Source: Actinokineospora bangkokensis (GTDB lineage Bacteria; Actinomycetota; Actinomycetes; Mycobacteriales; Pseudonocardiaceae). From it: DNA of 64,000 nt. Positions 2,678-22,065 of the stretch are shown in pieces (position 1 is the first letter of the stretch; every line of letters starts with the position of its first letter). Where the stretch lies: positions 471,074 to 535,073 of the forward strand of contig NZ_MKQR01000009.1 of the NCBI RefSeq assembly GCF_001940455.1, written 5' to 3'. The notes under the pieces were generated by a model. It was not told where the DNA came from, did no database searches, and worked only from the letters and a program-made list of their open reading frames with translations. A program made the translations under genes and the position numbers.

Positions 2678-3901
2678 TCAGGGGGTGGACGAGGGGTGGC
2701 GGACGGAGGGGGACAGGAGGGGGAGGGTGACGATGAGGGCGAACAGGATGCCGCCGAGGAGCATGGCCTCGGTTTGGCCGGTGGCGGCTGCCAGGGGGGC
2801 GACGGCCAGTTGGCCGACCGGGACGGCGGCGAAGGAGACGAGGTCGTCGTAGGCGGAGATCCGGGACAGCAGGGTGTTGGGGACCTTCTGCTGGAGGAGG
2901 GTTTCCCAGGTGATGGCCATGGTGCCGTGGCCGATGCCCGCGATGAGGGAGGTGGCGACGAGCAGCCAGACGGGTGCGGAGAGGGCGAGGGCGATGAGGG
3001 GGAGGGCGCCGGTGGCGAAGCAGAGCAGGCCGGTGGGGAGGGAGCGGGCCCGGAGGCGGTAGAGGGCCGTGGTGGCGACGAGGGTGCCGATGGCGCGGGC
3101 GCTGAGGATGAGGCCCCAGGCCGCGGCGCCGATGGTGGTGTCGGCGATGGTGGGGCCGAGGACGTTCCAGACGCCGACGTAGATGGCGTTGGTGGCGGCG
3201 AAGGCGAGGACGGTGAGGCAGACCCAGGTGAGGGCGCGGAAGGCGGTCCAGCCCTCGCGGAGTTCGTGCAGGAAGCCCGCGCGGCCGACCTCGACGGCGC
3301 CCGGGAGGGTGAGGCGGGCGAGGCAGGCGGCGGCGAGCAGGTAGGTGAGGGCGTCGATGGCGATGGCCCAGCCGCTGCCCGCGGTGAGGACGAGGGTGCC
3401 CGCCAGCGACGGGCCGACGATGGAGCTGAGGTTCTTGGAGGAGCCGAGCAGGGAGTTGGCGCGCTGGCGCTGGTCGGGCTCGACGAGCTGGGGGACGATG
3501 CCGCGCAGGGCGGGGGTGGTGAACGCGGTGAGCACGCCGTTGGCGAACTCCAGGGCGGCGATGGCGGCGAGGTGGAAGCCGCCGGTGAGGAACAGGGCCG
3601 CGGCCGTGCCCTGGGTGGCCGCGGCGCCGAGGTTGGCCACCAGCAGGACGGTGCGGCGGGGGAAGCGGTCGCCGACGACGCCGCCGATGAGCAGGAACAG
3701 CAGCATGGGGACGCTGCGGGCGGCGAGGACGACGCCGAGGCTGCCCGCGCTGTGGGTGGCGTCGAGGACGGCGAAGGCGAGGGCGACCGGGGCCATGGCG
3801 CTGCCCGCCAGGGAGACGAGCCTGCCCGCGAAGAACCAGCGGAAGCCCGGGTTGCGCAGCGGTCCCGCCGACGTCGTGCCCGGTGCCTGCTCCTCGGTCA
3901 T
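2678..3901 (-). CDS. MFS exporter of the biosynthetic cluster
   Basis: A 407-residue integral membrane protein with about 12 hydrophobic helices and the MFS loop 2-3 motif GDRFPRRTV near residue 80. It resembles the drug/siderophore exporter branch (MFS_3, EntS-like). Its ATG overlaps the stop codon of the upstream NRPS gene (ATGA at 3898-3901), so the two are translationally coupled. That coupling is the best argument that it exports the product of the cluster or gives self-resistance. Substrate cannot be read from the sequence. Confidence 0.9.
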   Translation of the reverse strand: MTEEQAPGTTSAGPLRNPGFRWFFAGRLVSLAGSAMAPVALAFAVLDATHSAGSLGVVLAARSVPMLLFLLIGGVVGDRFPRRTVLLVANLGAAATQGTAAALFLTGGFHLAAIAALEFANGVLTAFTTPALRGIVPQLVEPDQRQRANSLLGSSKNLSSIVGPSLAGTLVLTAGSGWAIAIDALTYLLAAACLARLTLPGAVEVGRAGFLHELREGWTAFRALTWVCLTVLAFAATNAIYVGVWNVLGPTIADTTIGAAAWGLILSARAIGTLVATTALYRLRARSLPTGLLCFATGALPLIALALSAPVWLLVATSLIAGIGHGTMAITWETLLQQKVPNTLLSRISAYDDLVSFAAVPVGQLAVAPLAAATGQTEAMLLGGILFALIVTLPLLSPSVRHPSSTP

Positions 3902-6687
3902 GGTCCCCCGTCCCCCCGCACCACCTCCAGCAAGCGGGTCAGCAGCTCGCCGTTGCGCATCATGCCGTTGTGGTGGAACTCGCCGGTGCGCACCACGCGG
4001 GCGGCGCCGATCCTAGGGGTCGCGCGCAGCTGGAGCTCCACCGGCGTGTAGAGGTCGCCGTCGTAGACCAGGGCGGCGACGGGCACGTCGTTGGCGGCCA
4101 GCCGGTCGAGGTCGTAGAGGTCGGGCCAGTCGGACTCCTCGGCCAGCAGGTGCGCCGCGCCCGCGAAGGGGCGCAGCTCGGTGAACTCCTCGAACATCCA
4201 GGGGTAGATCATCTCCCCGATGAGCAGCGGCGGGTCGGCGTCGGTCAGCTCGGGGAACTCGGCCAGCACGCGGTGCGCGGCCCAGCGGGTCGGCCGGTCG
4301 GGGCCCGCGTAGAGGAACTCCTGCAGGGCGTAGAGCTGCGCGTCGGTGAACCCGGTCTCGGCGGCGACCGCGCGCAGGAACCCCTCGGACACCCGGTCGC
4401 CGTCCCAGGCCTGCCGCAGGACGGCGTGCACGCGGTCGGGGCCGTTGCTCATGCCCAGGTTGCGCCCGACCAGCCGCAGGCGCCTGCTGGTGAGCCGGGC
4501 CCCGTCGGGCAGCCGCACGTCGTGGGTGTCCAGGTGGGCGGCGAGGCGCTTGAGCAGGTCGGCGTCGTCGGGGTGCTCGGCGAAGTAGGCGGAGTTCTTG
4601 CGCAGCAGTTCGGCGTAGGTGTGCCGGTAGACCTCGTCGGCGGTGGCGCCCAGCGGGGGCACCCCGCCGGAGATCAGCACGGCCGACAGCGCCTCGGGTG
4701 CCAGCGACAGGTAGGTCAGGGCGAGGAAGCCGCCGTAGCTCTGGCCCAGCAGGGTCCACTTCGCGCCGCCCGCGACCCGGGCGCGCAGGACTTCGGCGTC
4801 GCGGACGATGCTGTCGGCGCGGAAGCGGGTCACGTGCGCGGCGATCTCCTGGTCGGTGCGCCCGGCCATGGTGCTCGCGGTGATGGGGGCGCTGCGCCCG
4901 CCGCCGCGCTGGTCGAACAGCAGGACGCGGTGGTCCTCCAGCGCGGTCGTCAGCCACCCACCGGCGAAGGCGGGTGGTGGGCTCGGCGCGCCGGGGCCGC
5001 CTTGCAGGAACAGCAGCCACGGCAGGTCGTCGTGCTCGCGACCGCGGGCGACGACCTCCTGGGCGAACACCTCGATGGTGGGGCCGTCCGGGTCGGAGTG
5101 GTCGAGGGGCACCGGCACGCGGTGCTCGCGGAGGGTGAACTCGTCGGTGGTCATCCGCGTGTTGGCCGAGCGCGACGGGAAGGTGCGCAGCAGCTCGCGA
5201 CCGGTGTCGTCGGTGTCCGTTTCAGGGGTGAGACGGTGTCCGTAGCCGAGCGCGGGGGAGAGGCCGTCGGCGAGGTAGGCCAGGTACGGGGTCAGCGCGT
5301 TGGGCTCCGCGGACAGCGCGCGCAACCAGTCGTCGTAGCCGACGACGGCCACCGCGCGCCCGATGTAGCGGATGTTCGAGACGATCTCGCGCCAGCCGAC
5401 CGACCCCGCGGGCACCACCACGTCACCGGTCGCGCCCACCACCACCTCCGCCACGCGGGCCGCCGACGTGACGGGGAACGACAGCTCCAGGTCGGGGGCC
5501 GCCCGCACGGTCATGCACGCCCGCACCATCGCCGCGAGGAACCCGTCCGCCAGGTCCACGACGTCCTCGTGCTCGGACACGACCTGCCCGACCCGGATCG
5601 TCCGCGTGGGCACCCCCCGCTCGGCGGCCTGCCGCACGAGCCGGTCGGCCACCCACTTGCTCTGCGCCAGGCTGCCGGACACCTCCGAGGACGCGCTCAG
5701 CGGCGACAGGTGCGCCACCGCCTTCCCTGCACCCGTCGAGGCGAACCGCAGCACCTCCAGCGTGCTGAGGACGTTCACCGGCACCAGGTCGTCGAACGCC
5801 GCGCGCCGGTCGAAGCACTCGCCCACGTGCACGACCCGCGCCACCACCGCGGCCAGCGCGCGATAGGTCTCGGGCTCCATGCCCAGGAACGGTTGGGTGA
5901 GGTCACCGGGCACGGCGACCAGCCGATCGGCGTCCCCCGCCCGCCACAGCCCGCACTCCACCAACCGGACCCGCAGCAGTTCCTGCGCGGTCCCGGCATC
6001 GGCGGCGGGCACGAGGACGTGGACGGCCGCGTCGGTGTTGTCGGCGTCGGCGGCGTTGTCGGTGTCGGCGAAGGCCCGGACGATGTGCGGGATCGCCAGT
6101 CCGGTGATCAGCACACCCCCGGACCGGGCCGGTTCCCCGCACGGCCGGACGTCGGCGGGCAACTGGGCCAACGCCGCCAACCGGTCAGCGGGGACGCCGC
6201 GCACCGCGGCATCGGGAACGGGCTGCCACCCGCCGTCCCCGCCGGTCAGGCGCACCAGGGTGCGGATCGTCGGGCTTGCCATGAACGCCGTCAGGTCGAG
6301 CGGTGCGCCCCCGTTCTCCGCCCACCGCGCCGCCATCCGCACCGCGATGAGGGAGGTGCCGCCCAGCTCGAAGAAGTCCGCGTCCGGGCCGACCTCCGAC
6401 CGGCCCAGCACCTCCGCCCACAGCGCGCGCGCCGCTGACTCGGCCGGGGTGGCGTGCTCGGCGGCGGCCGGGGTCACACCGGGCGCGGGGGCGGCGGCGA
6501 GCGCGCGCAGCGCTCCCCGGTCGACCTTGCCGTTGGGCAGCGCGGGCAGGTCGTCGAGCACCACCACCCGGGACGGGACCATGGCGGGCAGCAGGCGTTC
6601 ACGGGCGAACCGGTGGACGTCCTCGCGCAGCGCCGCCGCCCACCGGGTGCGCGCCGGGTCGTTGGCCAGGTCGCGGGGTTCGTCCAT
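3898..6687 (-). CDS. NRPS protein: A-domain C-terminal end, carrier protein, degenerate thioester reductase domain, fused S33-type hydrolase
   Basis: This 929-residue protein starts inside what should be one A domain. Residues 1-60 are the C-terminal subdomain with the A10 lysine motif NGKVDR; residues 80-150 are a carrier protein with the pantetheine serine in LGGTSL (Ser112). Residues 190-500 align with NRPS terminal reductase domains (VPGDL, AQSKW), but the nucleotide-binding glycine loop reads LITGLAIPHI and the catalytic tyrosine before QSK is leucine, so reduction is probably lost. From residue 512 it continues without a stop into a proline-iminopeptidase-like alpha/beta hydrolase: oxyanion GGPG (563-566), FDQRGGGRS, nucleophile Ser650 in GQSYGG, later YDGD and a histidine in EFHHN. 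The ATG has GAGG six bases upstream and overlaps the previous gene by 89 bases. An internal ATG at 5154 could yield the hydrolase alone, but it lacks a clear ribosome site. Confidence 0.85.
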   Translation of the reverse strand: MDEPRDLANDPARTRWAAALREDVHRFARERLLPAMVPSRVVVLDDLPALPNGKVDRGALRALAAAPAPGVTPAAAEHATPAESAARALWAEVLGRSEVGPDADFFELGGTSLIAVRMAARWAENGGAPLDLTAFMASPTIRTLVRLTGGDGGWQPVPDAAVRGVPADRLAALAQLPADVRPCGEPARSGGVLITGLAIPHIVRAFADTDNAADADNTDAAVHVLVPAADAGTAQELLRVRLVECGLWRAGDADRLVAVPGDLTQPFLGMEPETYRALAAVVARVVHVGECFDRRAAFDDLVPVNVLSTLEVLRFASTGAGKAVAHLSPLSASSEVSGSLAQSKWVADRLVRQAAERGVPTRTIRVGQVVSEHEDVVDLADGFLAAMVRACMTVRAAPDLELSFPVTSAARVAEVVVGATGDVVVPAGSVGWREIVSNIRYIGRAVAVVGYDDWLRALSAEPNALTPYLAYLADGLSPALGYGHRLTPETDTDDTGRELLRTFPSRSANTRMTTDEFTLREHRVPVPLDHSDPDGPTIEVFAQEVVARGREHDDLPWLLFLQGGPGAPSPPPAFAGGWLTTALEDHRVLLFDQRGGGRSAPITASTMAGRTDQEIAAHVTRFRADSIVRDAEVLRARVAGGAKWTLLGQSYGGFLALTYLSLAPEALSAVLISGGVPPLGATADEVYRHTYAELLRKNSAYFAEHPDDADLLKRLAAHLDTHDVRLPDGARLTSRRLRLVGRNLGMSNGPDRVHAVLRQAWDGDRVSEGFLRAVAAETGFTDAQLYALQEFLYAGPDRPTRWAAHRVLAEFPELTDADPPLLIGEMIYPWMFEEFTELRPFAGAAHLLAEESDWPDLYDLDRLAANDVPVAALVYDGDLYTPVELQLRATPRIGAARVVRTGEFHHNGMMRNGELLTRLLEVVRGDGGP

Positions 6688-9600
6688 CGTGGTCCTCGGG
6701 TCGGGTGGTGAAGGTGATGTCCAGCCGGGTCGGATCGCCGGAGCGGGCGGGCCGCACGTGGGCGCGCAGGCCGCGCTCGGCGGCGACGCGGTGCGCCTCG
6801 GCGGGGTCGACGGCGTGCGCGGTGTCGAGCGCCCACACCGAGCGGGCGACCTCCCACGCCGTCACGTCGTCGGCGGCGCTGTCCACGGCGGACAGGGCCG
6901 CGGTGGGGCGCACCAGCCGGGCGTTCGGCACGTCGAGCAGCACCCGTCCGGCTTCGGCGTGCTCGGCCAAGCCGCCGTCCTCCCCGGGCGCCCACGGCGC
7001 GCCGGTCGGCTCCGGCGCCGCGGCGTCGGGGTGTCCGGGGCCCAGCAGGGTCACGTCCCAGCGGAACCTCGACATCTCCGTCCACACCCGGTCGGCCCGG
7101 CACTCGACGCGGGCGGTGGTGCCGGGGTGGCGGGCCAGCACGGCGTCGAAGAACCCCGGGGTCAGGCACAGCTCGTGCTCGGCCGCCACGTGCCGCTCGA
7201 CCACGGCGCGCAGCTCGGCGGCGGGCAGCAGCCGCGGGCAGCGCCGCACCTGGACGTCGGCGTGGAAGTGGGCGAGCAGGCGGGCGTCGCGGACGTCCCC
7301 GACGAACACCGCGCCCGCGGGGCCCGCCACGCGCAGCGCCTCGTCGAGCACGCCCGCCAGGTGGTCGGCGTCGGGGAAGTACTGGACCACGGAGTTGAGC
7401 ACCACGACGTCGGCCGAGGCGGCCGGCAGCTCGGCCAGCACCCTGGCGTCGCCCTCGCGGAAGGACACCCCGTCGCGGCCGACGAGCGCCGCGGCCGCGG
7501 CGGCCAGCGCCTCGCCGGAGAAGTCGATCGCCAGGTACCGCTCCCAGCCGTCGAGCGAGCGCGCCAGCAGGCCGCCGCCCGCGCCGACGTCCACGACCCG
7601 CCGGGCGCCCAGCGACCGCACCCGGCGCACCGTGGCGCCGAGCCAGTCGGCCATGGTGGGCTCGGGGATGCGCTCGCCGGTGTAGCTGTCGACCCAGCCG
7701 GGGAACTGGCCCGCCGCCCGGTAGCTGGCGTCCCAGACGTGCAGCCAGTCGGTGATGACGGGTTCGCGCTCGCGGCCGCGGCGGGGGCGCACGAACGCGA
7801 CCAGCTCGTCGCCGCGGGCGTCGTCCCGGTCGACGACCACCGCGGCCGCCTCGACCAGCGGGTGCTCCGACAGCACCGACTCCACCTCGTCCAGCTCCAC
7901 CCGGTGCCCGCGCACCTTGACCTGCCGGTCGTCGCGGCCCAGGAACTCCAGCGCGCCGTCGCGGCGCCACCGCACGAGGTCGCCGGTGCGGTAGTGGCGG
8001 TCGGGCCCCGGGGTGAACCGCTCGGCGTCCAGCTCGGGGCGCCGGAAGTAGCCCCGCGCCACACCGTCCCCGCCGATCCACAGCTCCCCGGTGACCCCGA
8101 CGCACGCGTCGCCGCCCAGGCCGTCGACCACGCGCAGGGTGGTGCGGTTGATCGGGCGGCCGATCGGCACGAGCGGGACGCGCGTGTCCGGCTCAGCCAC
8201 GTCATGCGTAAGCGACCAGATGGTCGTCTCGGTGGGCCCGTACATGTTCACCACCCGCGCCCCCGGCACCCCGGTGACGAGTTGCTGCGCCAACCCCTGC
8301 GGCAGCAGCTCCCCGCCCACCAGCAGCGCCCGCACCCCGCCGAGCGCGGCCAGGACCTCGGGTTCGGCCGCCACGGCGGTGAGGAAGGACGGCGTCGCCT
8401 GCGCCACGGTCGGGCGGAACCGGCCCAGCAGCTCCAGCAGCGAGCCCGGCCCGTGGCGCAGCCTGCCCACCATGCCCTCCGGGCAGATCGCCGTGGTGGC
8501 GCCGCGCGCCAGCGGCCACAGCAGCTCCAGCACGGAGATGTCGAAGGATGCGCTGGTCTGGGCGAGCACCCGGTCGTCGGGGGACAGGCCGATGGCGTCA
8601 TCCATGCCGACGAAGAAGTTCGTGACGTTGCGGTGCTCCAAGACTGTGCCCTTGGGACGGCCCGTGGACCCGGAGGTGTACATGACGTAGGCCGCGTCGC
8701 CCGGACCCGCCACGTCCTCGGGCGGCTCGTCCGCGCCCGCCCGCTCGACGTGGACCACGGGCGCGGTGGTGGGGGGCGGGTCCACGCCTGCGCCGACCAC
8801 CAGGCACGCCAGGTCGGCGTCCTCGGTGATGAACCGCAGCCGCTCGGCCGGGAAGCCGGGGTCGAGCGGCAGGTACGCCGCACCCGCCGCCTGCGCGCCC
8901 AGCAGCCCGACCACGAGGTCGACGCCGCGCCGCACGCTCACCCCGACGCGGTCGCCCCGGCCCACGCCGAGCGCGCGCAGCCGGTGCGCGAGGTGGTTGA
9001 CCCGGCGCTCCAGCTGCCGGTAGGTCGTGCTGCCCGCCGGGTCGAGCACGGCGATCGCGCCCGGCCGCCCGGCGGCGGCAGCGCGGAACTGGGCGTGGAC
9101 GGTGCGGGCGTGGGCGTCGGGCAGCTCGGGTCCGGTGCTCCACGCGGCCACCGCCGCGCGCTCGTCCGCCGAGCGCAGGTCCACCCCGGTCGCCAGGGCG
9201 GACGGGTCGTCGGCGATCGCCGCCAGCGCCGTCCGGTAGTAGCCGGGCAGGTTGTCGACGACCGCCGGGTGCACCCGCGCCCGGTCGGCGCGGATGACCA
9301 GGTCGCGGCCGTCCAGCACGACGGTGAGCGGGAAGTCCTCCCCGGTCCCGCCCACCGCGCTGTCGACGACCAGCCCGGACCCGCGGACCTGCTCCCACTC
9401 GACGGGTTCGGCTTCCGCCCGCGCCACGTCCGCGGCGATCCCGGCCCAGCTCGACCCGGTCAGGTCGACGCGGACCACGACGGCCGGGCTCCCGGCGAGC
9501 ACGGTGACCACTTCGGCCCGCGACGTGAGGGAGCCGAGCACCCGCAGGTGCGCCACCGCCGCGAGCACGCGCGCGGGCCAGCCCGCGCCCGGCAGCGCCA

Positions 9601-9709
9601 CCCGGGCCGTCGCCACCCCCGTCCCCGGCGTGGTGGGGCGGGGGAGCGGCAGCGGGTCGGCGTCCGCCAGCGCGCGGGTCCGGTGCGCGGGGTCCGCCAC
9701 GTCGTGCAC
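6599..9709 (-). CDS. NRPS protein: C-domain remnant, glycine-type A domain interrupted by an N-methyltransferase
   Basis: The 1036-residue protein opens with about 200 residues resembling only the C-terminal half of a condensation domain; no HHxxxDG motif exists. The A domain follows: A3 YTSGSTGRPKG (344-354), A5 YGPTE (490-494), A7 YRTGDL, A8 near 591-610. My alignment to PheA gives pocket residues D390, I391, L394, Q437, L463, G465, M489, I497, W498, which with lysine is the pattern I know for glycine. Between A8 and the expected A9 is an NRPS N-methyltransferase (SAM loop VVDVGAGGG at 705; NSVVQYFP at 772), predicting N-methylglycine. The end of the A domain is encoded in the next, overlapping ORF in another frame. 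GTG 9709 is chosen because AGGAGG lies five bases upstream; GTG 9712 is next to it. Confidence 0.88.
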   Translation of the reverse strand: MHDVADPAHRTRALADADPLPLPRPTTPGTGVATARVALPGAGWPARVLAAVAHLRVLGSLTSRAEVVTVLAGSPAVVVRVDLTGSSWAGIAADVARAEAEPVEWEQVRGSGLVVDSAVGGTGEDFPLTVVLDGRDLVIRADRARVHPAVVDNLPGYYRTALAAIADDPSALATGVDLRSADERAAVAAWSTGPELPDAHARTVHAQFRAAAAGRPGAIAVLDPAGSTTYRQLERRVNHLAHRLRALGVGRGDRVGVSVRRGVDLVVGLLGAQAAGAAYLPLDPGFPAERLRFITEDADLACLVVGAGVDPPPTTAPVVHVERAGADEPPEDVAGPGDAAYVMYTSGSTGRPKGTVLEHRNVTNFFVGMDDAIGLSPDDRVLAQTSASFDISVLELLWPLARGATTAICPEGMVGRLRHGPGSLLELLGRFRPTVAQATPSFLTAVAAEPEVLAALGGVRALLVGGELLPQGLAQQLVTGVPGARVVNMYGPTETTIWSLTHDVAEPDTRVPLVPIGRPINRTTLRVVDGLGGDACVGVTGELWIGGDGVARGYFRRPELDAERFTPGPDRHYRTGDLVRWRRDGALEFLGRDDRQVKVRGHRVELDEVESVLSEHPLVEAAAVVVDRDDARGDELVAFVRPRRGREREPVITDWLHVWDASYRAAGQFPGWVDSYTGERIPEPTMADWLGATVRRVRSLGARRVVDVGAGGGLLARSLDGWERYLAIDFSGEALAAAAAALVGRDGVSFREGDARVLAELPAASADVVVLNSVVQYFPDADHLAGVLDEALRVAGPAGAVFVGDVRDARLLAHFHADVQVRRCPRLLPAAELRAVVERHVAAEHELCLTPGFFDAVLARHPGTTARVECRADRVWTEMSRFRWDVTLLGPGHPDAAAPEPTGAPWAPGEDGGLAEHAEAGRVLLDVPNARLVRPTAALSAVDSAADDVTAWEVARSVWALDTAHAVDPAEAHRVAAERGLRAHVRPARSGDPTRLDITFTTRPEDHDGRTPRPGQRPGAHPVGGGAARGRPPVRP

Positions 9710-9726
9710 CACGGCCTCCTCGCCCG

Positions 9727-10950
9727 TCAGGCGCTCTTGCGGTCGTGCAGCTCGTGGGTGAGCCGCACCGCCTCGTCGATGGCCCGCTCGCAGTCCTCGA
9801 TGCTGTCCGCGCGGATCAGCGCGAGCGCGACGCAGGTGGTGCTGGTGACCATGTCGCGCATCACCTGGCCCGGCTGCACCGCCATGAGCACCTCGACCAC
9901 CCCGGGCAGCGCCTCGACGTCGTCCTGGGTGACCCCGTTGGCGGCGCCGGGCTTCACCGGCAGGCAGGCGAAGCCGTAGACGGCGCCGTCCACCGGCTCC
10001 GGCTCGCGCAGCGGCTCACCGGCTAGCAGCCGGGCGTGGGCGACCCAGGGGTTGAGGCCGATGGTGTGCCGGGAGGTGTTGGGCGCGAACACCCCGGCGG
10101 GCCGCCACCCCAGCTCACCGGCGGTGAACGACCCGGGCTCGCCGAACACCTCCAGGTGGAACACGCCGCAGGTGCCGCCCAGCGCGGTCACGGCCCGCTG
10201 GGCGAAGTCGGTGGCCGTGGCGTACAGCTCCGGGTGGGCGGCCGGGGGGAAGGCCACCGAGCGCAGGGTGGAGCCGTTCTTGGTCTCCCGCAGCGGCGCC
10301 ATGTACCGCGACACGACGAAGTGCACGATGCGCCCGTCGACCACCACGCCGTCGAGGTGCCACTCGCGGCCCTGCTGCATCTCCTCGACCACCGCGTGCC
10401 GCAGCGCGGGCGTGGTCGTCAGCACCTCGAACAGGTCGGCGGCGGACTCGCACACGCGCACGTCCCGGCTGCCCCCGCCCGACGGCGGCTTCACCACGTA
10501 CGGCGCCGACAACCCCACCAGCGCCTTGTCCAGCTCCTCCGCCGACAGCGGTGTGGTCGTCAGGGTGGTGCAGCGGGCGGTGGGCACGCCGTGGGCCGTC
10601 CACAACGACTTCTGGAACGCCTTGTCCCGCCCGGCCATGGCCATGCGGACGTCGATCCGCTCGGTCGCCTCCAGCCCCAGCAGCCGGTTGAGGAACCCGG
10701 CGGTGACCATGGCGAGCTCGTGGCACGGGATGACCAGGTCGACCTCGTCGGCCACGCCCAGGTGCAGCAGCACCGACCAGGCCAGCTCGGGGACGTCGAA
10801 GTCGGGCACGAACCCGATGTGCGCCAACCGGTCCGCGTAGCGCTCGGCGGTGCCGCGGTTCCACTCGACGTAGAGCACGGTCAGGGTGTGGCCGAGGTCG
10901 AGCAGCTCGTCCATCACCTCCGCCCGCGCTCCCAGCAGGACGATGTGCAC
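9727..10950 (-). CDS. ATP-grasp ligase
   Basis: A 407-residue ATP-grasp protein. The central part shows the nucleotide-binding pattern YVVKPPSGGGSRDVRV, the segment HAVVEEMQQGREWHLDGVV, and the metal/ATP loop HLEVFGEPGSF. Enzymes of this superfamily activate a carboxylate as an acyl phosphate and join it to an amine or thiol. Within this cluster, which lacks a complete condensation domain, it is the best candidate for making the amide bond, perhaps between the cyclopropyl amino acid and the N-methylglycine unit (inference). Start is GTG 10950 with GGGA upstream. It lies between the flavoprotein gene (33 bases upstream) and the NRPS gene (17 bases downstream), clearly one operon. Confidence 0.9.
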   Translation of the reverse strand: MHIVLLGARAEVMDELLDLGHTLTVLYVEWNRGTAERYADRLAHIGFVPDFDVPELAWSVLLHLGVADEVDLVIPCHELAMVTAGFLNRLLGLEATERIDVRMAMAGRDKAFQKSLWTAHGVPTARCTTLTTTPLSAEELDKALVGLSAPYVVKPPSGGGSRDVRVCESAADLFEVLTTTPALRHAVVEEMQQGREWHLDGVVVDGRIVHFVVSRYMAPLRETKNGSTLRSVAFPPAAHPELYATATDFAQRAVTALGGTCGVFHLEVFGEPGSFTAGELGWRPAGVFAPNTSRHTIGLNPWVAHARLLAGEPLREPEPVDGAVYGFACLPVKPGAANGVTQDDVEALPGVVEVLMAVQPGQVMRDMVTSTTCVALALIRADSIEDCERAIDEAVRLTHELHDRKSA

Positions 10951-10983: not shown

Positions 10984-12138
10984 TCAGCTGGGCGCCGCGG
11001 TGTCGAAGACGAGGTCGCGCAGCAGCTCGTTCGCCCCGGCCGTGATCGTGCCCGCCGCCGCGTCGCGGTGGACCCTCGCCACCGCCGAACCCTCCCGGTA
11101 GCCGCGGGCGCCGTGGTACTGCAAGCACGCGCGGGCGGCGTTCGCGGCGAGTTCGGTGGCGCGCAGCTTCAGCGTCGACGCGGTCCTGGTGTCCAGCCGC
11201 CCGCGCGCGTGCCGCAGGGCCGCCAGGTGCGCGTAGGAGCGCACCAGGTCCAGCTCGGCGGCGAGGTCGGCGGTGGTGTGCCGGACGACCTGGTTCGCCG
11301 ACAGCGGCGCGCCGCCGACGTGGTGCCCGCGCACGAACCCGTCGAGCAGGTCCAGGCAGTGCGCCGCCCCGCCCGCGGCCAGCAGCCCGGCGGCCAACCG
11401 CTCGAAGTCCAGCGACTCCACCAGGTAGGTCAGGGTGCGCGCCGGGTTGCCCAGCACCCGGTCGGCGGGCACCGGCACGGCGTCGAAGGTGACCTCGCAG
11501 ACGTCGGCCGAGTGCCAGCCGAGCATCGGCTCGGGGGTGGCGCGCACACCGGGGGCGTCGGCGTCGACCAGCAGGAACCCGCACCCGGCCAGCGAGCGCG
11601 GGCGCGCGGCGACCGTGCGCAGCCGGGCCAGGCAGACGTAGAAGCCCGCCTGCGAGCCGTTGGCGACGTGCGCCTTGTGGCCGGTGAGCCGGTAGCCGCC
11701 GGACCCGTCCGGCTCGGCCCGGGTGGTGATCGCGGCCAGGTCGGTGCCCGCGTCGGGCTCGCTGAGCGCCAGCGCCGCGACGCGCGTGCCCGCGCGCACG
11801 TCCGCCAGCAGCTCCGCCCGCTGCTCGGGGGTGCCGAAGCGGTCGAGGTAGTGGGCGGCCATGAACGCGTGCACCGCCACCCCCGCCCGGATGCCCGCGT
11901 ACCCGGTGCGGCCCAGTTCCTCCAGCAGGATGGCGCTGTCGGTGAAGCCGTCGCCGGACAGCGGCATCCCGAGCAGCCCGGCGTCCCCGAGCGCCCGCCA
12001 CCCCTGTTCCGGGATGCGCCGCGCCCGCTCCCACTCGTCGGCGTGCGGCAGCACCAGTTCCGCGAGCGCGGCGCGGACCCGGGCGCGCACCGGGTGGTGG
12101 GCGTCCAGGGCGTCGAGGACGGGGTCGAACGGCGTCAT
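10984..12138 (-). CDS. Acyl-CoA dehydrogenase-like flavoprotein, KtzA-like candidate cyclopropane-forming enzyme
   Basis: A 384-residue protein with the acyl-CoA dehydrogenase fold: N-terminal helical domain, the middle-domain motif ALSEPDAGTDLA with a following TGHKAHVANG, and a C-terminal helical domain ending in YHGARGYREG...HRDAAAG. At the position of the usual catalytic glutamate (IYEGT in medium-chain enzymes) the sequence reads ITAGANE, so glutamate seems replaced by alanine; some family members place the base elsewhere. In kutzneride biosynthesis KtzA, a homologue of this family, closes a cyclopropane from a carrier-bound gamma-chloro amino acid instead of dehydrogenating. The same neighbours (halogenase, carrier, A domain) make that role likely here. 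ATG 12138 overlaps the A-domain stop as ATGA. Confidence 0.88.
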   Translation of the reverse strand: MTPFDPVLDALDAHHPVRARVRAALAELVLPHADEWERARRIPEQGWRALGDAGLLGMPLSGDGFTDSAILLEELGRTGYAGIRAGVAVHAFMAAHYLDRFGTPEQRAELLADVRAGTRVAALALSEPDAGTDLAAITTRAEPDGSGGYRLTGHKAHVANGSQAGFYVCLARLRTVAARPRSLAGCGFLLVDADAPGVRATPEPMLGWHSADVCEVTFDAVPVPADRVLGNPARTLTYLVESLDFERLAAGLLAAGGAAHCLDLLDGFVRGHHVGGAPLSANQVVRHTTADLAAELDLVRSYAHLAALRHARGRLDTRTASTLKLRATELAANAARACLQYHGARGYREGSAVARVHRDAAAGTITAGANELLRDLVFDTAAPS

Positions 12139-13709
12139 CCGCGCGGCTGCCTCCCGGCCGCGCGCTGGGCCACCAGGGCGCGGCGGTCGACCTTGCCGGT
12201 CTCCGACAGCGGCAGCGACCCGAGCACGTGGACCTCGCCGGGGACGAGGTAGGCGGGCAGCACCCCGGCCAGGTGCGCGCGCAGCGCCTCGGCGGTGCAG
12301 CCGTCGTCGGCCACCACGAACGCCACCAGCACCCGCTGCCCCAGGGCGCCCTCGACCGCGCACACGACGCACTGCCGGACCGCGGGGTGCTGTTCGAGGT
12401 GGTGGGCGACCTCGCTCGGCTCCACCCGGAAGCCGTTGACCTTCACCTGGTCGTCCACCCGTCCGACGAACACGATGTCGCCGTCGTCGTCGAGGTGCAC
12501 GAGGTCGCCGGTGCGGTAGACCCGTTCGCGCGCCCCGCCCACCTCGACCTCGGTGAACCGGGCCGCGGTGGCCTCGGGCGCGCCGACGTAGCCCGCCGCG
12601 AGCCCCGGCCCGGCCAGGAGCAGTTCGCCCACCTCGCCCGGCCCGCACAACCGCCCGTCGGCGACGACGTGGGCGCGGGTGTTCTGGATCGGCCGCCCGA
12701 TGGGCACCGGGCGCCCGTCCGGGGGCAGCTCGCGCACCGGGTGGTGGGTGGCGAAGGTGGTGCACTCGGTGGGCCCGTAGACGTGGGTGACCCGGCCCGG
12801 CCCGTACCGGCGCAGCGCCAGGTCCATCGCGCGCAGGGAGTGCGCCTCGCCGCCGGTGAGCACGCTGCGCACGGTGTCGAGGGTGTCCGGGGCCTCGTCG
12901 ACGATGGAGTTGAACAGCGCCGTGGTGAGGAAGACGGTGGTCACCGAGTGCGCGACGAGCACCCTCCGCAGCTCGGACAGGCGGGGGAGCGCGGAGGGGT
13001 AGACGACGCAGGTGCCGCCGTTGAGCAGCGGGCCCCAGACCTCGAACGTCGCCGCGTCGAAGGTGATCGGGGCCATGTGCAGGACGCGGGTGCCCGCGTC
13101 CAACCGGGTGTAGGTGGCGCCGGACACCAGGCGCAGCACGGCCCGGTGCTGCACGAGCACGCCCTTCGGCACCCCACCCGAACCGGAGGTCAGGTTGACG
13201 TAGGCGGGCGCGTCGGCGGGCACGGCGGGCGGCGACCACGGCCCCGGGTCGTCGTCGGAGGTCACCGAGACCGCCGCCACGCCGGGGAAGCGGGCGGCCA
13301 CGGCGTCGGCGCGGTCGGTGAGCACGACCCCGCAGCCGGTGCGCTCGAACAGGTCGAGGACGCGCTGGTCCGGCCACGCCCCGTCGAAGGGCACGTAGGC
13401 GGCGCCGCAGGTGAGCACCGCCAGCAGCGCCACGACCAGCTCCGGGCCCTTGCCGACGAGCACGCCGGCGAACTGGCCCGGCCGCACCCCCGCGGCTGCG
13501 AGCCGGGCGGCGAGGCGGTCGGCGGCCTCGGCCAGTTCCCCGTAGGTGAGCCGCCGATCGCCGCAGACCACCGCGGTGGCGCCGGGGGCGTGGTCGGCCC
13601 AGCGGGCGAACGCGGCGGGCACGCTGTCGTCGGCCGGGTAGTCGACCGCGGTCGCGTTGAGGGCGTCGTGCACCCGCGCCGCGCCCGGGTCGACCACCGG
13701 TGAGTCCAT
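12135..13709 (-). CDS. Free-standing NRPS adenylation domain, predicted isoleucine-activating (KtzB-like)
   Basis: A 524-residue stand-alone A domain without carrier or condensation parts. Motifs: A3 NLTSGSGGVPKG (172-183), A4/A5 YGPTE (311-315), A7 YRTGDL (398-403), A8 near 415-432, A10 ETGKVDR with the lysine at 506. By alignment to PheA the pocket is D218, A219, F222, L261, L284, G286, V310, T318, F319, K506. This differs at one position from a code I recall for isoleucine (DAFFLGVTFK), and so predicts isoleucine or a similar branched side chain. It presumably loads the free carrier protein encoded just upstream, whose cargo the halogenase then modifies. It ends in ATGA with the flavoprotein gene. 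Confidence 0.92.
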   Translation of the reverse strand: MDSPVVDPGAARVHDALNATAVDYPADDSVPAAFARWADHAPGATAVVCGDRRLTYGELAEAADRLAARLAAAGVRPGQFAGVLVGKGPELVVALLAVLTCGAAYVPFDGAWPDQRVLDLFERTGCGVVLTDRADAVAARFPGVAAVSVTSDDDPGPWSPPAVPADAPAYVNLTSGSGGVPKGVLVQHRAVLRLVSGATYTRLDAGTRVLHMAPITFDAATFEVWGPLLNGGTCVVYPSALPRLSELRRVLVAHSVTTVFLTTALFNSIVDEAPDTLDTVRSVLTGGEAHSLRAMDLALRRYGPGRVTHVYGPTECTTFATHHPVRELPPDGRPVPIGRPIQNTRAHVVADGRLCGPGEVGELLLAGPGLAAGYVGAPEATAARFTEVEVGGARERVYRTGDLVHLDDDGDIVFVGRVDDQVKVNGFRVEPSEVAHHLEQHPAVRQCVVCAVEGALGQRVLVAFVVADDGCTAEALRAHLAGVLPAYLVPGEVHVLGSLPLSETGKVDRRALVAQRAAGRQPRG

Positions 13710-13777
13710 CGTCCACGTCCGATCAGGGGAGTGGGGGCCGCCCGGCCGGGCGACCCCCGCGCGTCCTGGCTGGCACC

Positions 13778-14038
13778 TCAGCCCGCCGCGGCGGCACCGC
13801 CCGCGTGCCGCACGATCAGCTCGGCGATGCCCCGCACGGTGCTGTTCTCGTACAGCTCATCGGCGGGCAGGCAGTCCTCGCCGTACTCCTTCTCGGCGCG
13901 GCTGACCAGCCGCACCACACCCATCGAGGTGCCGCCGATGGCGAAGAAGTCGTCCTCGGCGCCGCGGGCGGGCAGCCCCAGCGCGACCAGCTCGTCGAGC
14001 ACCCACCCCTGCACGGCCTGCTGCTCGGGGGCGGTCAC
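13778..14038 (-). CDS. Free-standing peptidyl carrier protein (KtzC-like)
   Basis: An 86-residue acidic carrier protein with the phosphopantetheine site [10 protein letters not shown] (serine at 38) and the expected four-helix length. It begins with a GTG that overlaps the halogenase stop (GTGA at 14035-14038), so translation is coupled. Halogenases of the SyrB2 type act only on amino acids tethered to such a carrier, and the order halogenase-carrier-adenylation-flavoprotein makes this the likely platform for chlorination and ring closure. A 68-base gap separates it from the A-domain gene; I see nothing notable in the gap. Confidence 0.93.
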
Positions 14039-14994
14039 GACACCCTCCCCGGCACGGGGAAGCGGAAGCCGTTGACGGTCTCGTCCACGAACTTGTTGTG
14101 CCCGAAGGTGTCCTGGCCGGAGACGAGCACGTTGCCGAAGCGCTCCAGGCTCGCGGTGCCGCCGAACTCCTCCAGGCCGTTGGAGTAGGGGTAGACGCGC
14201 ACCGAGGTGGGCAGGTAGCGGGCGGCGAAGCCCAGGCGCATCTGGTCGGTGAGGCCCGCGTGCGGGTGCGAGGCGTGCATGAGCGTGGACCAGAAGATGA
14301 TGAACTGGCCCTGGCGCATCACCTGCGAGACGGCCCGGGACTCGTCGGGCTCCCAGTCCGGGTCCTTCTGCAGCTGGCGGTAGTCGTAGCCGAAGAAGCC
14401 GCGGCGCACGCCCGCCTTCTCCCGGTTGTTGATGGCCTCGGGGTCGTAGTCCATCGTCTTGGTCTCGTCGTAGTTCATCACGTCGTGGGTGCCGGGGATG
14501 AACTGCAGGCAGCCCATCTCCACCGTGGCCGGGGTGAACGCGGTCCACACGGTGATCGTGCCGCCGAACTCCGCGTCGTTGGGCCACTCGATCTGCGGCT
14601 GCTTGGACCCGGCCACGTTGGCGAAGTTGTCCGCCTGGTGCCAGTCGGTGCCCTCGTCGCCGGGGTACTTGGGGAAGAACTCGGTGCGCCAGCACAGCAC
14701 GTCGGGCCCGAGGATGGAGGCGACCCGGTCGGTGATCTCCGGGCGCACGATGTGCCGGGCCAGGAACTCCACGTCGAGGTGGCGGTCGTAGTTGGCCAGG
14801 TTCGTCACCCCGGAGACCCCGTCGCCGCCGCCGTACACCGCTTTCTTGGTGTTGAGCAGCTTGGGCCGCAGGGCGCGCAGGTCCTGCTCCATCTGCTCTG
14901 GCTCGTAGAGGTCGAACGGTCCGATGAAGCCGTCGCGGTGGAATTGGGCCAACTGCGCGTCGGTCAACGAGAATTCGCGACCTGGATCACCCAT
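14035..14994 (-). CDS. SyrB2-type non-heme Fe(II)/2-oxoglutarate halogenase (KtzD-like)
   Basis: The 319-residue protein is a PhyH-superfamily enzyme with the hallmark of aliphatic halogenases. The facial triad of dioxygenases (His-x-Asp...His) is changed to His-x-Ala: H119-Q-A121 in [12 protein letters not shown], leaving an iron site open for chloride; the distal histidine is H240 in [12 protein letters not shown], and R253 is a candidate 2-oxoglutarate ligand. The segments [13 protein letters not shown] and [19 protein letters not shown] are nearly as in SyrB2. Known relatives chlorinate unactivated methyl or methylene groups of carrier-bound Thr, Leu, Ile or aminobutyrate. The ATG at 14994 has AAGGAG nine bases upstream. 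It is the first gene of the minus-strand cluster operon. Confidence 0.94.
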
Positions 14995-20050: not shown

Positions 20051-20085
20051 GGTGACTAGCCGGTCACCCGAACCTAGGTTACGGT
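20051..20085 (+). promoter_or_regulatory. PadR promoter with two palindromic operators
   Basis: GTGACT (20052-20057), 17 bases, TAGGTT (20075-20080) is a plausible promoter; an alternative -10 is TACGGT (20080-20085), seven bases before the GTG at 20093. The inverted repeat GGTGAC-N6-GTCACC (20051-20068) covers the -35 box and the palindrome AACCTAGGTT (20071-20080) covers the -10, so a regulator bound here would block transcription. Autoregulation by PadR is inferred. Confidence 0.5.
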
Positions 20086-20626
20086 GACACATGTGTGGAT
20101 CGAGGTGCTGCTGCTGTCCAAGCTCTCCCGGGGGCCGCTGCACGGCTACGAGCTGCGCAAGGAGGTCGAGGCCTCGACCGGGCGCACGCTGTCGAACAAC
20201 TCGCTCTACCCCACCCTGCGGCGCTTCGTCGACGCGGGCGCGGTGACGCGCAGCGCCGAGGAGCAGGAGGCCAAGCCGCCCCGGCACGTCTACACGATCA
20301 CCGACGTGGGCCGGGAACTGCTGCACGACGTGCTCACCGACTTCCCGGACGAGGTCGCGCGCAGCGAGGCCGAGTTCCTGGCCAGGGTGGGCAACTTCGG
20401 CAGGCTCCGACCGGACGAGCGGGTGCGCGTCGTCGACACCCGCGACCGGGCGGTCGCCGAGGAGCTGGACCGGCTCGGCGCGCTGGCGCTGACCCAGGAC
20501 GACCCGTGGAGCCGCGCGGTGCTGCAGGAGGTCTGCGCGCGCCTGGTGGCCGAGCGGGGGTGGTTGGCCCGCCTGCGCGAGCGGGCGGCCGCCGAGCCGG
20601 AGTCCGCGACCGAGCAGGACACTTGA
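20084..20626 (+). CDS. PadR family transcriptional regulator
   Basis: 180 residues with the N-terminal PadR winged helix ([48 protein letters not shown]) followed by a helical C-terminal dimerisation region. PadR proteins usually repress adjacent transport or detoxification genes and release on binding a small aromatic ligand. It is the first gene of an operon with a P450 (13 bases downstream) and a ferredoxin. GTG 20084 is the longest start; GTG 20093 fits the promoter better. Confidence 0.88.
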
Positions 20627-20639
20627 GGAGGGGACTGCC

Positions 20640-21857
20640 ATGACCACCACCGACACCGCGGCGCCTCGGCTGCCGTTCGACCGGCCCGACGCGCTGGCCG
20701 CCGCGCCGATCTTCGCCGCGCTGCGCCAGCAGGGCCCGGTCGTGCGCGTGATCACCCCGGCGGGCGACCCGGCCTGGCTGGTCACGTCCTACGACGCGGT
20801 CCGCGAGGTGTTCCGGGACAAGCGCTTCGGCCGCTCGCACCCGGCCCCGGAGCAGGCCGCGCGCATCTCGCACGCGGCGATCCAGGACGGCCCCAGCGGC
20901 GACTACGAGACCGAGGAGCGCGACCACAAGCGGATGCGCCGGATGCTGGCGCCCGCGTTCTCCGCGCCCCGCATGCGCGCGCTGACCGACCGGGTCACCG
21001 AGCTGGCCACCGAGCTGCTCGACGCGATGGAGGCCCGGCACGCCGCCGCGCCGGACGAGCCGGTCGACCTCTACGAGTCGCTGGCCTTCCCGCTGCCGGT
21101 GCTGGTGATCTGCGAGCTGCTGGGCGTGCCCTACGCCGACCGGGCCATGTTCCGCGACCTGTCCGAGCGCATCGCGGTCTTCGACGGCGGCGCCGACGCG
21201 CAGCGGGCGATGGCCGACTTCCGCGACTACATGCTGCGCCTGGCCGTGGCGAAGCGGTCGGACCCGCAGCCCGACGTCATCTCCGACCTGGTCGCCTTCC
21301 AGCGGGAGGACCCGACCTTCACCGACGACGACCTCGCCAGGCTCGCCGCGGGCCTGCTGTTCGCGGGCCACGAGACCACCGCGACCCGGATCAGCCTGGG
21401 CACCCTGCTGCTGCTGACCGACCTGTCCCGCCGCGACGAGTTCCTGGCCGACCCCGACGGCAAGGTCAACGACGTGGTCGAGGAGATCCTGCGGCTGACC
21501 GTCACCGGCGGCACCGGCCTGCTGCGCTACGCCCACGAGGACGTCGAGGTGGGCGGGGTGACGATCAACCGGGGCGACGCGGTGCTGGTGTCCATCGAGT
21601 CGGCCAACCGCGACGAGTCGGTGTTCGAGTCCCCGGACGACTACGACCCGGACCGCTCGCCGAACGTGCACGTCGCCTTCGGCCACGGCGCGCACGTGTG
21701 CATCGGGGCCAACCTGGCCCGCACCGAGCTGCGCGCGGTGTTCCCCATGATCTTCAAGCGGTTCCCGGGGCTCACCCTGGCCAAGCCGCTGGAGCAGATC
21801 GCCGTCCGGCACAACCGGGTCGCAGGCGGCGTCGACGAGGTCCCGGTGACCTGGTGA
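20640..21857 (+). CDS. Cytochrome P450 of the PadR operon (CYP105-like)
   Basis: A 405-residue soluble P450 with I-helix AGHETT (242-247), ExxR E282-R285 in EEILR, and heme loop [10 protein letters not shown] with Cys354. It resembles the CYP105-type group used for xenobiotics or late tailoring steps. ATG 20640 follows GGAGGGG. It lies 13 bases after the padR stop and 10 bases before the ferredoxin start, so all three are coexpressed. Substrate unknown; PadR control suggests an inducible response to a small molecule. Confidence 0.93.
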
Positions 21858-21867
21858 GGAGGCGGTC

Positions 21868-22065
21868 GTGAAGGTCGTGGCCGACAAGGAGCTGTGCGTC
21901 GGGGCCGGGCAGTGCGCCATGGTGGCCGAGCGCGTGTTCACCCAGGACGACTCCGACGGCACGGTGGTGGTGCTCAAGGAGGTCCCCGACGCGGGCGAGG
22001 AGGCCGACGCCCGCCAGGCGGTGCTGATCTGCCCGTCGGGCGCGCTGTCCCTCGACGAGTCCTGA
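21868..22065 (+). CDS. [3Fe-4S] ferredoxin, P450 redox partner
   Basis: 65 residues with the single-cluster pattern CVGAGQC...CPSGAL (three cysteines, alanine-type residue in place of the fourth), typical of actinomycete ferredoxins encoded beside P450s. It passes electrons from a ferredoxin reductase to the P450. GTG 21868 follows GAGGAGG. It could also serve the lone P450 of the biosynthetic cluster 5 kb away. Confidence 0.93.
   Translation: MKVVADKELCVGAGQCAMVAERVFTQDDSDGTVVVLKEVPDAGEEADARQAVLICPSGALSLDES

Follow-up and report, generated by a model that had tools for sequence, protein, structure and literature searches.

A compact 14-kb gene cluster of the GC-rich actinomycete Actinokineospora bangkokensis carries a known kind of cassette, that of KtzABCD in kutzneride biosynthesis, in unusual surroundings that differ from those of the kutzneride genes. 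Within the window, by which we mean the whole stretch of 64,000 nucleotides that was analysed, this cassette lies beside an ATP-grasp ligase and a split module that would supply N-methylglycine. We give a probability of roughly 65% to the explanation as a whole, namely, that the KtzABCD-type cassette and the sarcosyl split module together lead to a small peptide that is not a kutzneride.

The halogenase cassette

The first of the four cassette genes (14035..14994, minus strand) encodes a non-heme iron aliphatic halogenase of the KtzD/SyrB2 type, with scores of 434 bits against the NCBIfam family TIGR01762 ("chlorinating enzyme"; cut-off, 226), 444 bits against syringomycin biosynthesis enzyme 2 (PDB 2fct), and 398 bits against CytC3. 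In SyrB2-type aliphatic halogenases, the facial triad motif His-x-Asp is replaced by His-x-Ala/Gly. The protein in the window reads HQA at this place, and the active-site His, Ala, His, and Arg (His-x-Ala, a second His, and Arg) are found in all 51 aligned rows. Next come a free-standing peptidyl carrier protein in the position of KtzC (13778..14038, minus strand; PF00550, 41 bits) and a free-standing A domain in that of KtzB (12135..13709, minus strand; PF00501, 253 bits, and TIGR01733). The pocket of this A domain, DAFLLGVTFK, matches the DAFLLGMTFK of KtzB at nine of ten positions and is common to 31 of 42 locus rows. The last gene, in the position of KtzA (10984..12138, minus strand), encodes an acyl-CoA-dehydrogenase-like flavoprotein (PF00441/02771/02770), the proposed cyclopropane former.

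A protein search against KtzA, KtzB, KtzC, and KtzD of Kutzneria sp. 744 gave identities of 59, 57, 38, and 75%, respectively, and in the Kutzneria locus (L035) halogenase, carrier, A domain, and flavoprotein are likewise adjacent and in the same order. The KtzABCD reading of the preliminary description thus holds at the level of sequence, in gene order, identities, pocket, halogenase residues, and flavoprotein base position, with the chemistry predicted from these. The same description had all four genes in one overlapping operon. Their place and identity stand; the strict overlap does not, as there are overlaps of 4 bases between the halogenase gene and the carrier gene and between the A-domain gene and the flavoprotein gene, while 68 bases separate the carrier gene from the A-domain gene. 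Among 54 loci fetched by the halogenase, 28 contain the same four genes, counted where A domain and flavoprotein both reach at least 45% identity, and this recurrence argues that the grouping exceeds chance. A second halogenase in the genome (63% identical) was considered as part of a second cassette of this type and set aside, given that no flavoprotein match was found in the 19 kb examined around it.

In the flavoprotein, a Glu aligns with the E of LCAD in PDB 8w0t, which we take to be the catalytic base and which is Q in 8w0z. This Glu is kept in 36 of 36 rows, KtzA included, and the slot of the medium-chain base holds Ala or Gly in 35 of them, with one gap. Distant dehydrogenases (38 to 39% identity) keep the same Glu too, and for this reason the residue is consistent with a cyclopropane former and not diagnostic of one.

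The surrounding cluster and its split module

The preliminary description had bounded the feature at 10984..14994. These limits fit the cassette genes and are too narrow for the cluster, since the unit shared with Streptomyces sp. RKAG290 extends from a cytochrome P450 gene (15520..16749, plus strand; PF00067), divergent from the cassette, to a gene for an MFS exporter (2678..3901, minus strand; PF05977/PF07690). The P450 is 70% identical over 388 residues to its counterpart in RKAG290, which sits in the same divergent place, and the exporter of RKAG290, at 66 to 69% in two pieces, lies behind the same genes.

Directly downstream of the cassette lies the gene for an ATP-grasp L-amino-acid ligase (9727..10950, minus strand), with PF02222 and LAL_C2 (PF18603) over cut-off. 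Its relation to the "L-amino acid ligase" of PDB 4wd3, which has an ATP-grasp fold, is distant (61 bits over query residues 39 to 376 of 407), and the two have a GE-x-x-x-R stretch in common. In the host's order and family, relatives of this ligase reach about 40% identity only; among the other genomes covered, they occur in 1 out of 396 and in 2 out of 389. The ligase is proposed as the amide-bond former because the cluster has no recognisable condensation domain.

The next product (6599..9712, minus strand; PF00501 and Methyltransf families) consists of an unclassified N-terminal part, an A domain, and an embedded methyltransferase, and it matches at 125 bits the interrupted A domain of PDB 5wmm, an entry labelled just "NRPS" that is presumably TioS. 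Its pocket, DILSLGMIW as read by motif, is glycine-like and departs at one position from what we take to be the glycine code, DILQLG. Methyltransferases at the A8-A9 insertion site can also be O-methylating, as KtzH is according to the accessible part of reference PMC11355689. The idea that this product begins with a truncated condensation domain was considered and is unsupported, as the first 195 to 196 residues gave no Pfam or PDB match.

The tail of the glycine-like A domain opens the following gene (3898..6687, minus strand), whose 929-residue product joins the A9-A10 segment to a carrier (PF00550), a reductase-like domain (PF07993), and an S33 hydrolase of the proline-iminopeptidase type (PF00561; 332 bits to AT3g61540, PDB 8jgn). 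The layout is thus that of a split module: the methyltransferase follows A8, the gene ends, and A9-A10 begins the next one. We think that a frameshift artefact is unlikely, since the two genes of the window overlap by 89 bases and use different frames, whereas those of RKAG290 share one frame and are separated by a stop, although the RKAG290 assembly breaks both A domains into several frames and is a weak witness alone. Moreover, six further proteins (P0164 to P0169) have the same fusion and also start with the A-domain tail. In the reductase-like domain, the Tyr of Y-x3-K is missing in all eight rows (the window protein and P0164 to P0170) and TGxxGxxG in seven, P0169 retaining the glycine motif; the Tyr is present in 30 of 33 comparison rows. 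On this loss of motifs, we reject release by an active reductase. As an observation in its own right, N-methylglycine resembles proline, and the carrier that would hold it is fused to a hydrolase domain of the proline-iminopeptidase type.

Ligase and glycine-like methyltransferase module confirm the earlier view that the downstream genes differ from those of kutzneride, and the window holds none of the genome's 38 matches to the condensation domain PF00668. The expectation that the product is new, or at least not a kutzneride, is likewise in line with this and with the literature searched (mostly without subscription papers), whose listings showed no account of such a cluster.

Proposed route and its alternatives

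According to the accessible text of a 2025 review, KtzD chlorinates thioesterified L-Ile, which sets up the cyclopropyl ring (PMC12615548). By homology to this characterised system, the free A domain of the window would activate an aliphatic amino acid (L-isoleucine is the likeliest) and load the free carrier with it; the iron/2-oxoglutarate halogenase would then chlorinate the gamma carbon. With its Glu as base, the flavoprotein would deprotonate the alpha carbon, and the resulting carbanion would expel chloride and close the ring, with no net oxidation, to an allocoronamic-type cyclopropyl thioester. This passage from isoleucine via gamma-chloro-isoleucine is the best-supported route, although sequence cannot separate cyclisation from oxidation or elimination by the flavoprotein. 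In parallel, the split A/methyltransferase module would load glycine and methylate it to sarcosyl-S-carrier, a step based on homology and on an in vitro precedent for a split domain. The last steps are drawn from gene content only: the ATP-grasp ligase, possibly with the carrier-fused S33 hydrolase, would make the amide bond and release the product, which the P450 would oxidise and the MFS pump export. It counts against this route that the Pfam matches of the cluster include no thioesterase that would free the amino acid. The expected product should be a small peptide with a cyclopropyl amino acid and N-methylglycine, possibly undescribed. As to how a peptide bond could form without a condensation domain, it is quite doubtful, if conceivable, that the sarcosyl group is taken over by the S33 domain, as an acyl-enzyme, and transferred from there to an amine, either that of the cyclopropyl amino acid or that of its dipeptide made by the ATP-grasp enzyme, with the dead reductase domain just docking the chain.

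The cassette might instead yield a branched-chain amino acid that is gamma-chlorinated or unsaturated and keeps its alpha hydrogen, the flavoprotein acting by elimination or oxidation, and this toxic mimic would end up in a small peptide. We regard this as unlikely but as an explanation to be weighed, in view of what related cassettes contain. An aminoacyl-tRNA editing gene, matched over 78 to 100% of its length, lies between A domain and flavoprotein in 10 of the 28 cassettes, and RKAG290, the only other full cluster examined as DNA, adds an eleventh case in the form of a 52-residue fragment; three more of the 28 have such a gene elsewhere in the flanks. An editing guard suggests an amino acid that can be charged to tRNA and thus carries an alpha hydrogen, and would be odd for an alpha-quaternary product, so that its recurrence agrees better with a chlorinated or other alpha-hydrogen amino acid than with an alpha-quaternary one. 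Likewise, 19 of the 28 cassettes have a thioesterase between carrier and A domain, which suggests that the amino acid is set free, and the Pseudomonas aeruginosa PA7 cassette (L028) has genes for a LysE-type exporter and for 2-isopropylmalate synthase as neighbours. However, the editing gene could instead guard against leaked gamma-chloro-isoleucine, and the characterised kutzneride cassette, which shares base position and pocket code with the window, sets up a cyclopropyl ring (PMC12615548, in the portion accessible). In the window itself, the one tRNA-editing match covers 24 residues at chance level (E, 0.24), although protection in trans is possible in this host, whose genome has four PF04073 genes outside the window, one of which matches the cassette type over 102 residues at 42% identity. 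Nor do the 68 bases between carrier and A domain leave room for a thioesterase gene.

It is very unlikely that the flavoprotein acts as an ordinary acyl-carrier dehydrogenase and leaves the chlorine in place. Its fold and base position match ordinary long-chain and isovaleryl dehydrogenases, so that plain dehydrogenation is conceivable by sequence, but the identity of 59% to KtzA speaks against it, as does the grouping with flavoproteins encoded beside halogenase, carrier, and A domain. In an unrooted tree without an ordinary-dehydrogenase outgroup, KtzA falls in the same large group as the window flavoprotein and is not its sister; the 38 to 39% identical dehydrogenases of fused A-carrier cassettes form a long separate branch. 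Flavoproteins linked to the ATP-grasp ligase make up one group in this tree (11 of 12 rows; support, 100/100), and the larger set also includes members from thioesterase-bearing cassettes.

It is barely credible that the cassette serves a large NRPS encoded elsewhere and that the product is an ordinary long peptide, for example, a kutzneride relative. The 38 condensation-domain matches of the genome are spread over five contigs, and the closest of them lies on the contig of the window and ends about 37 kb ahead of it. However, a carotenoid-type gene set (phytoene synthase and polyprenyl synthase) intervenes between that NRPS and the cluster, the RKAG290 unit has no such match in the flanks examined, and only 2 of the 28 cassettes have one within flanks of at most 10 kb. 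The lack of a match in the window and the intervening gene set also led us to reject a whole-cluster relationship to kutzneride.

Relation to characterised systems

In coronamic acid formation, too, CmaA-E cryptically chlorinate an isoleucine-type amino acid on a carrier before the ring is closed, but CmaC is a zinc enzyme and not a flavoprotein. The closest likeness of the window is to KtzABCD, with four homologues in the same order and a pocket that differs at one position in ten. In contrast, the Kutzneria locus has condensation-domain matches within 10 kb, whereas the window has none and instead holds the ATP-grasp ligase and the fused S33 hydrolase.

The split module is reminiscent of Crz1/Crz2 in corallorazine biosynthesis of Corallococcus coralloides, whose split A domain is reported to act on glycine in vitro once the two proteins are brought together, and, as far as the accessible text goes, of crz-like clusters, which share with the window a glycine A domain with embedded N-methyltransferase at a gene end, followed in the next gene by A9-A10, a carrier, and a reductase-type domain, often with a P450 nearby (PMC11342130). 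By the same text, Crz1 includes condensation domains and Crz2 ends in a reductase said to depend on NAD(P)H; in the window, by contrast, condensation domains are absent, the reductase-like domain lacks the catalytic Tyr, and an S33 domain is added. A proposed non-redox reductase-like domain and a predicted proline iminopeptidase occur in one pathway in the R0/R* systems of chalkophomycin (ChmP/ChmF) and althiomycin (AlmF), in the accessible parts of the reports (PMC11085572 and PMC3445576), where the hydrolase is a separate protein, unlike that of the window, which is fused to carrier and reductase-like domain.

The window thus offers another natural case of the corallorazine-like split A domain, a hydrolase fusion that recurs and can be tested for its role, and a compact cluster for studying how N-methylglycine would be joined to a cyclopropyl amino acid on its carrier without a condensation domain. 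More generally, the finding that 26 of 28 cassettes show no condensation-domain match in the flanks examined suggests that the chlorinate-then-cyclise cassette of kutzneride is a seemingly portable unit that is mostly used away from NRPS assembly lines.

Gene layout and the counterpart of KtzABCD

Genes were called by GC content per codon position and domains assigned by Pfam/NCBIfam scans. A G+C content of 69-78%, together with the named relatives, points to an actinomycete. The window (G000:C9:471074-535073; genome, 7.45 Mb) carries on its minus strand the genes for a halogenase (14035-14994), a carrier protein (13778-14038), an A domain (12135-13709), and a flavoprotein (10984-12138), followed by those for an ATP-grasp ligase (9727-10950), an A/methyltransferase protein (6599-9712), a carrier/reductase-like/hydrolase protein (3898-6687), and an MFS pump (2678-3901). 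A P450 gene (15520-16749) is divergent and points away from the halogenase. Directly after the pump, on the same strand, lies a polyphosphate kinase 2 gene (1609-2661) that is probably outside the cluster; at 20084-22065, a further small group of genes, set apart from it, encodes a PadR regulator, a second P450, and a ferredoxin.

The preliminary description had likened the first four genes to KtzABCD, and this is borne out: in Kutzneria sp. 744, one of 54 loci retrieved when genome contigs were scanned for the halogenase, the counterparts are kept in the same order and are 75, 38, 57, and 59% identical (halogenase, carrier, A domain, and flavoprotein, respectively). At four sites of interest, each of the 51 aligned halogenases (the window's and those of 50 of the 54 loci) carries His, Ala, His, and Arg. 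Read from an alignment at pocket positions set by GrsA numbering, the window's A domain has DAFLLGVTFK, as do 31 of 42 locus rows, whereas KtzB has DAFLLGMTFK; these rows passed a filter of >40% identity and 400 to 900 residues, which 12 of the 54 loci, including L009 (Streptomyces sp. RKAG290) and L024, failed. The FERL stretch of the flavoprotein contains a Glu whose aligned residue is Glu in 8w0t, an LCAD structure, and Gln in 8w0z; this Glu is present in all 36 rows, including distant (38-39%) dehydrogenases. The slot of the base in medium-chain enzymes holds Ala or Gly in 35 of these rows, with a gap in the remaining one. According to one account, KtzD chlorinates carrier-bound Ile before the cyclopropane is formed (PMC12615548).

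A second SyrB2-type halogenase is encoded in the same genome (G000:C6:83651-84532; 63% identical), with A-domain and condensation-domain matches, and no flavoprotein match, nearby.

The split module, release, and amide bond formation

The A domain of the 6599-9712 product has the pocket DILSLGMIW by motif reading, which is near the glycine code. Its inserted methyltransferase is related (125 bits) to the interrupted A domain 5wmm (TioS), an enzyme of backbone N-methylation. O-methylation is also possible for such insertions (PMC11355689). The gene ends after the methyltransferase, and motifs A9-A10 open the next gene (3898-6687), before the carrier. A split of this kind is also reported from corallorazine biosynthesis: Crz1 and Crz2 together formed an A domain that activated glycine in vitro (PMC11342130). 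P0171, a protein of 573 residues, also starts with an A-domain tail but has kept the reductase Tyr. For the N-terminal 195-196 residues of the protein encoded at 6599-9712, no Pfam or PDB match was found.

None of the eight proteins compared (the window's and its relatives P0164-P0170, all but P0170 with a hydrolase part) has the catalytic Tyr in its reductase-like domain, and seven also lack the TGxxGxxG motif, which P0169 retains. The Tyr is kept in 30 of 33 comparison domains, chosen by eye among matches listing a reductase-type Pfam domain. In the S33 hydrolase part, GQSYGG, an Asp (D878), and EFHHNG, which correspond to the triad positions, are conserved in all seven fusion proteins; this part matches AT3g61540 with 332 bits, against 31 bits for the genome's next-best match. 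For chalkophomycin and althiomycin, a role in release or ring closure has been suggested for iminopeptidase-type enzymes and for an R domain of non-redox type (PMC11085572, PMC3445576). The ATP-grasp ligase is similar to the L-amino-acid ligase 4wd3. The cluster has no recognisable condensation domain, so the amide bond is most likely made by either this ligase or the S33 domain, with the data favouring neither.

The window's branch and the wider cassette family

The whole unit recurs in Streptomyces sp. RKAG290 with its layout kept, from the P450 (70%) through the MFS pump (66-69%), and the carrier/reductase-like/hydrolase fusion was also seen in P0164-P0169 (6 of the 84 proteins found). In an unrooted tree of 46 flavoproteins, built without an ordinary dehydrogenase outgroup, 11 of the 12 rows labeled as linked to an ATP-grasp ligase fall in one group (support, 100/100), with P0050 outside it; KtzA belongs to the larger set and is not sister to this group. 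Two of the 12 labels are those of the window and L009, and nine, that of P0050 included, are by proxy, the longest contigs of flavoprotein and ligase matches having the same length; P0002 is labeled because its contig is as long as that of the fusion protein P0165 and because of its closeness to P0003. No description of such a cluster was found in the literature searched, outside of which most subscription papers fall. The chemistry of the cassette is already known; what is new is its setting in this cluster.

Halogenase, carrier, A domain, and flavoprotein occur together in 28 of the 54 loci, with A domain and flavoprotein each at least 45% identical. A thioesterase lies between carrier and A domain in 19 of these cassettes; nine, the KtzABCD locus among them, are without it, and so is the window. 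Between A domain and flavoprotein, 11 of the 28 have an aminoacyl-tRNA editing match of the PF04073 type, 10 of them covering 78-100% of the query (L014, L016, L019, L023, L024, L028, L029, L030, L060, and L061) and one, in L009 (13070-13225), being a 52-residue fragment; three further cassettes have such a match elsewhere in their flanks. This looks as though tRNA could be charged with the product or with its chlorinated intermediate. PF04073-type genes do not fit readily with an alpha-quaternary product.

Five loci (L025, L031, L032, L033, and L049) represent a different type, with a halogenase, a thioesterase, an A domain apparently fused to the carrier, and the distant (38-39%) dehydrogenases, which form their own branch. 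A related cluster in Streptomyces guryensis (L029:1503-18056) has an ATP-grasp ligase (37%), a P450 (41%), and an MFS pump (51%), besides a pyroglutamyl peptidase, a luciferase-like oxygenase, a cupin, and a flavin monooxygenase; its cassette contains thioesterase and tRNA-editing genes.

Condensation-domain matches were found in the flanks of only two of the 28 cassettes (L018 and L035), using four queries from the window's own genome and flanks of at most 10 kb, a span that distant NRPS genes escape. The compact cassette of Pseudomonas aeruginosa PA7 (L028:9210-18416) also includes a GntR regulator, a thioesterase, and a tRNA-editing gene. There, genes for a LysE-type exporter and a 2-isopropylmalate synthase come after the cassette, a gene content that suggests an antimetabolite of branched-chain amino acids. 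We read these cassettes as a broad family, many members of which release a free amino acid.
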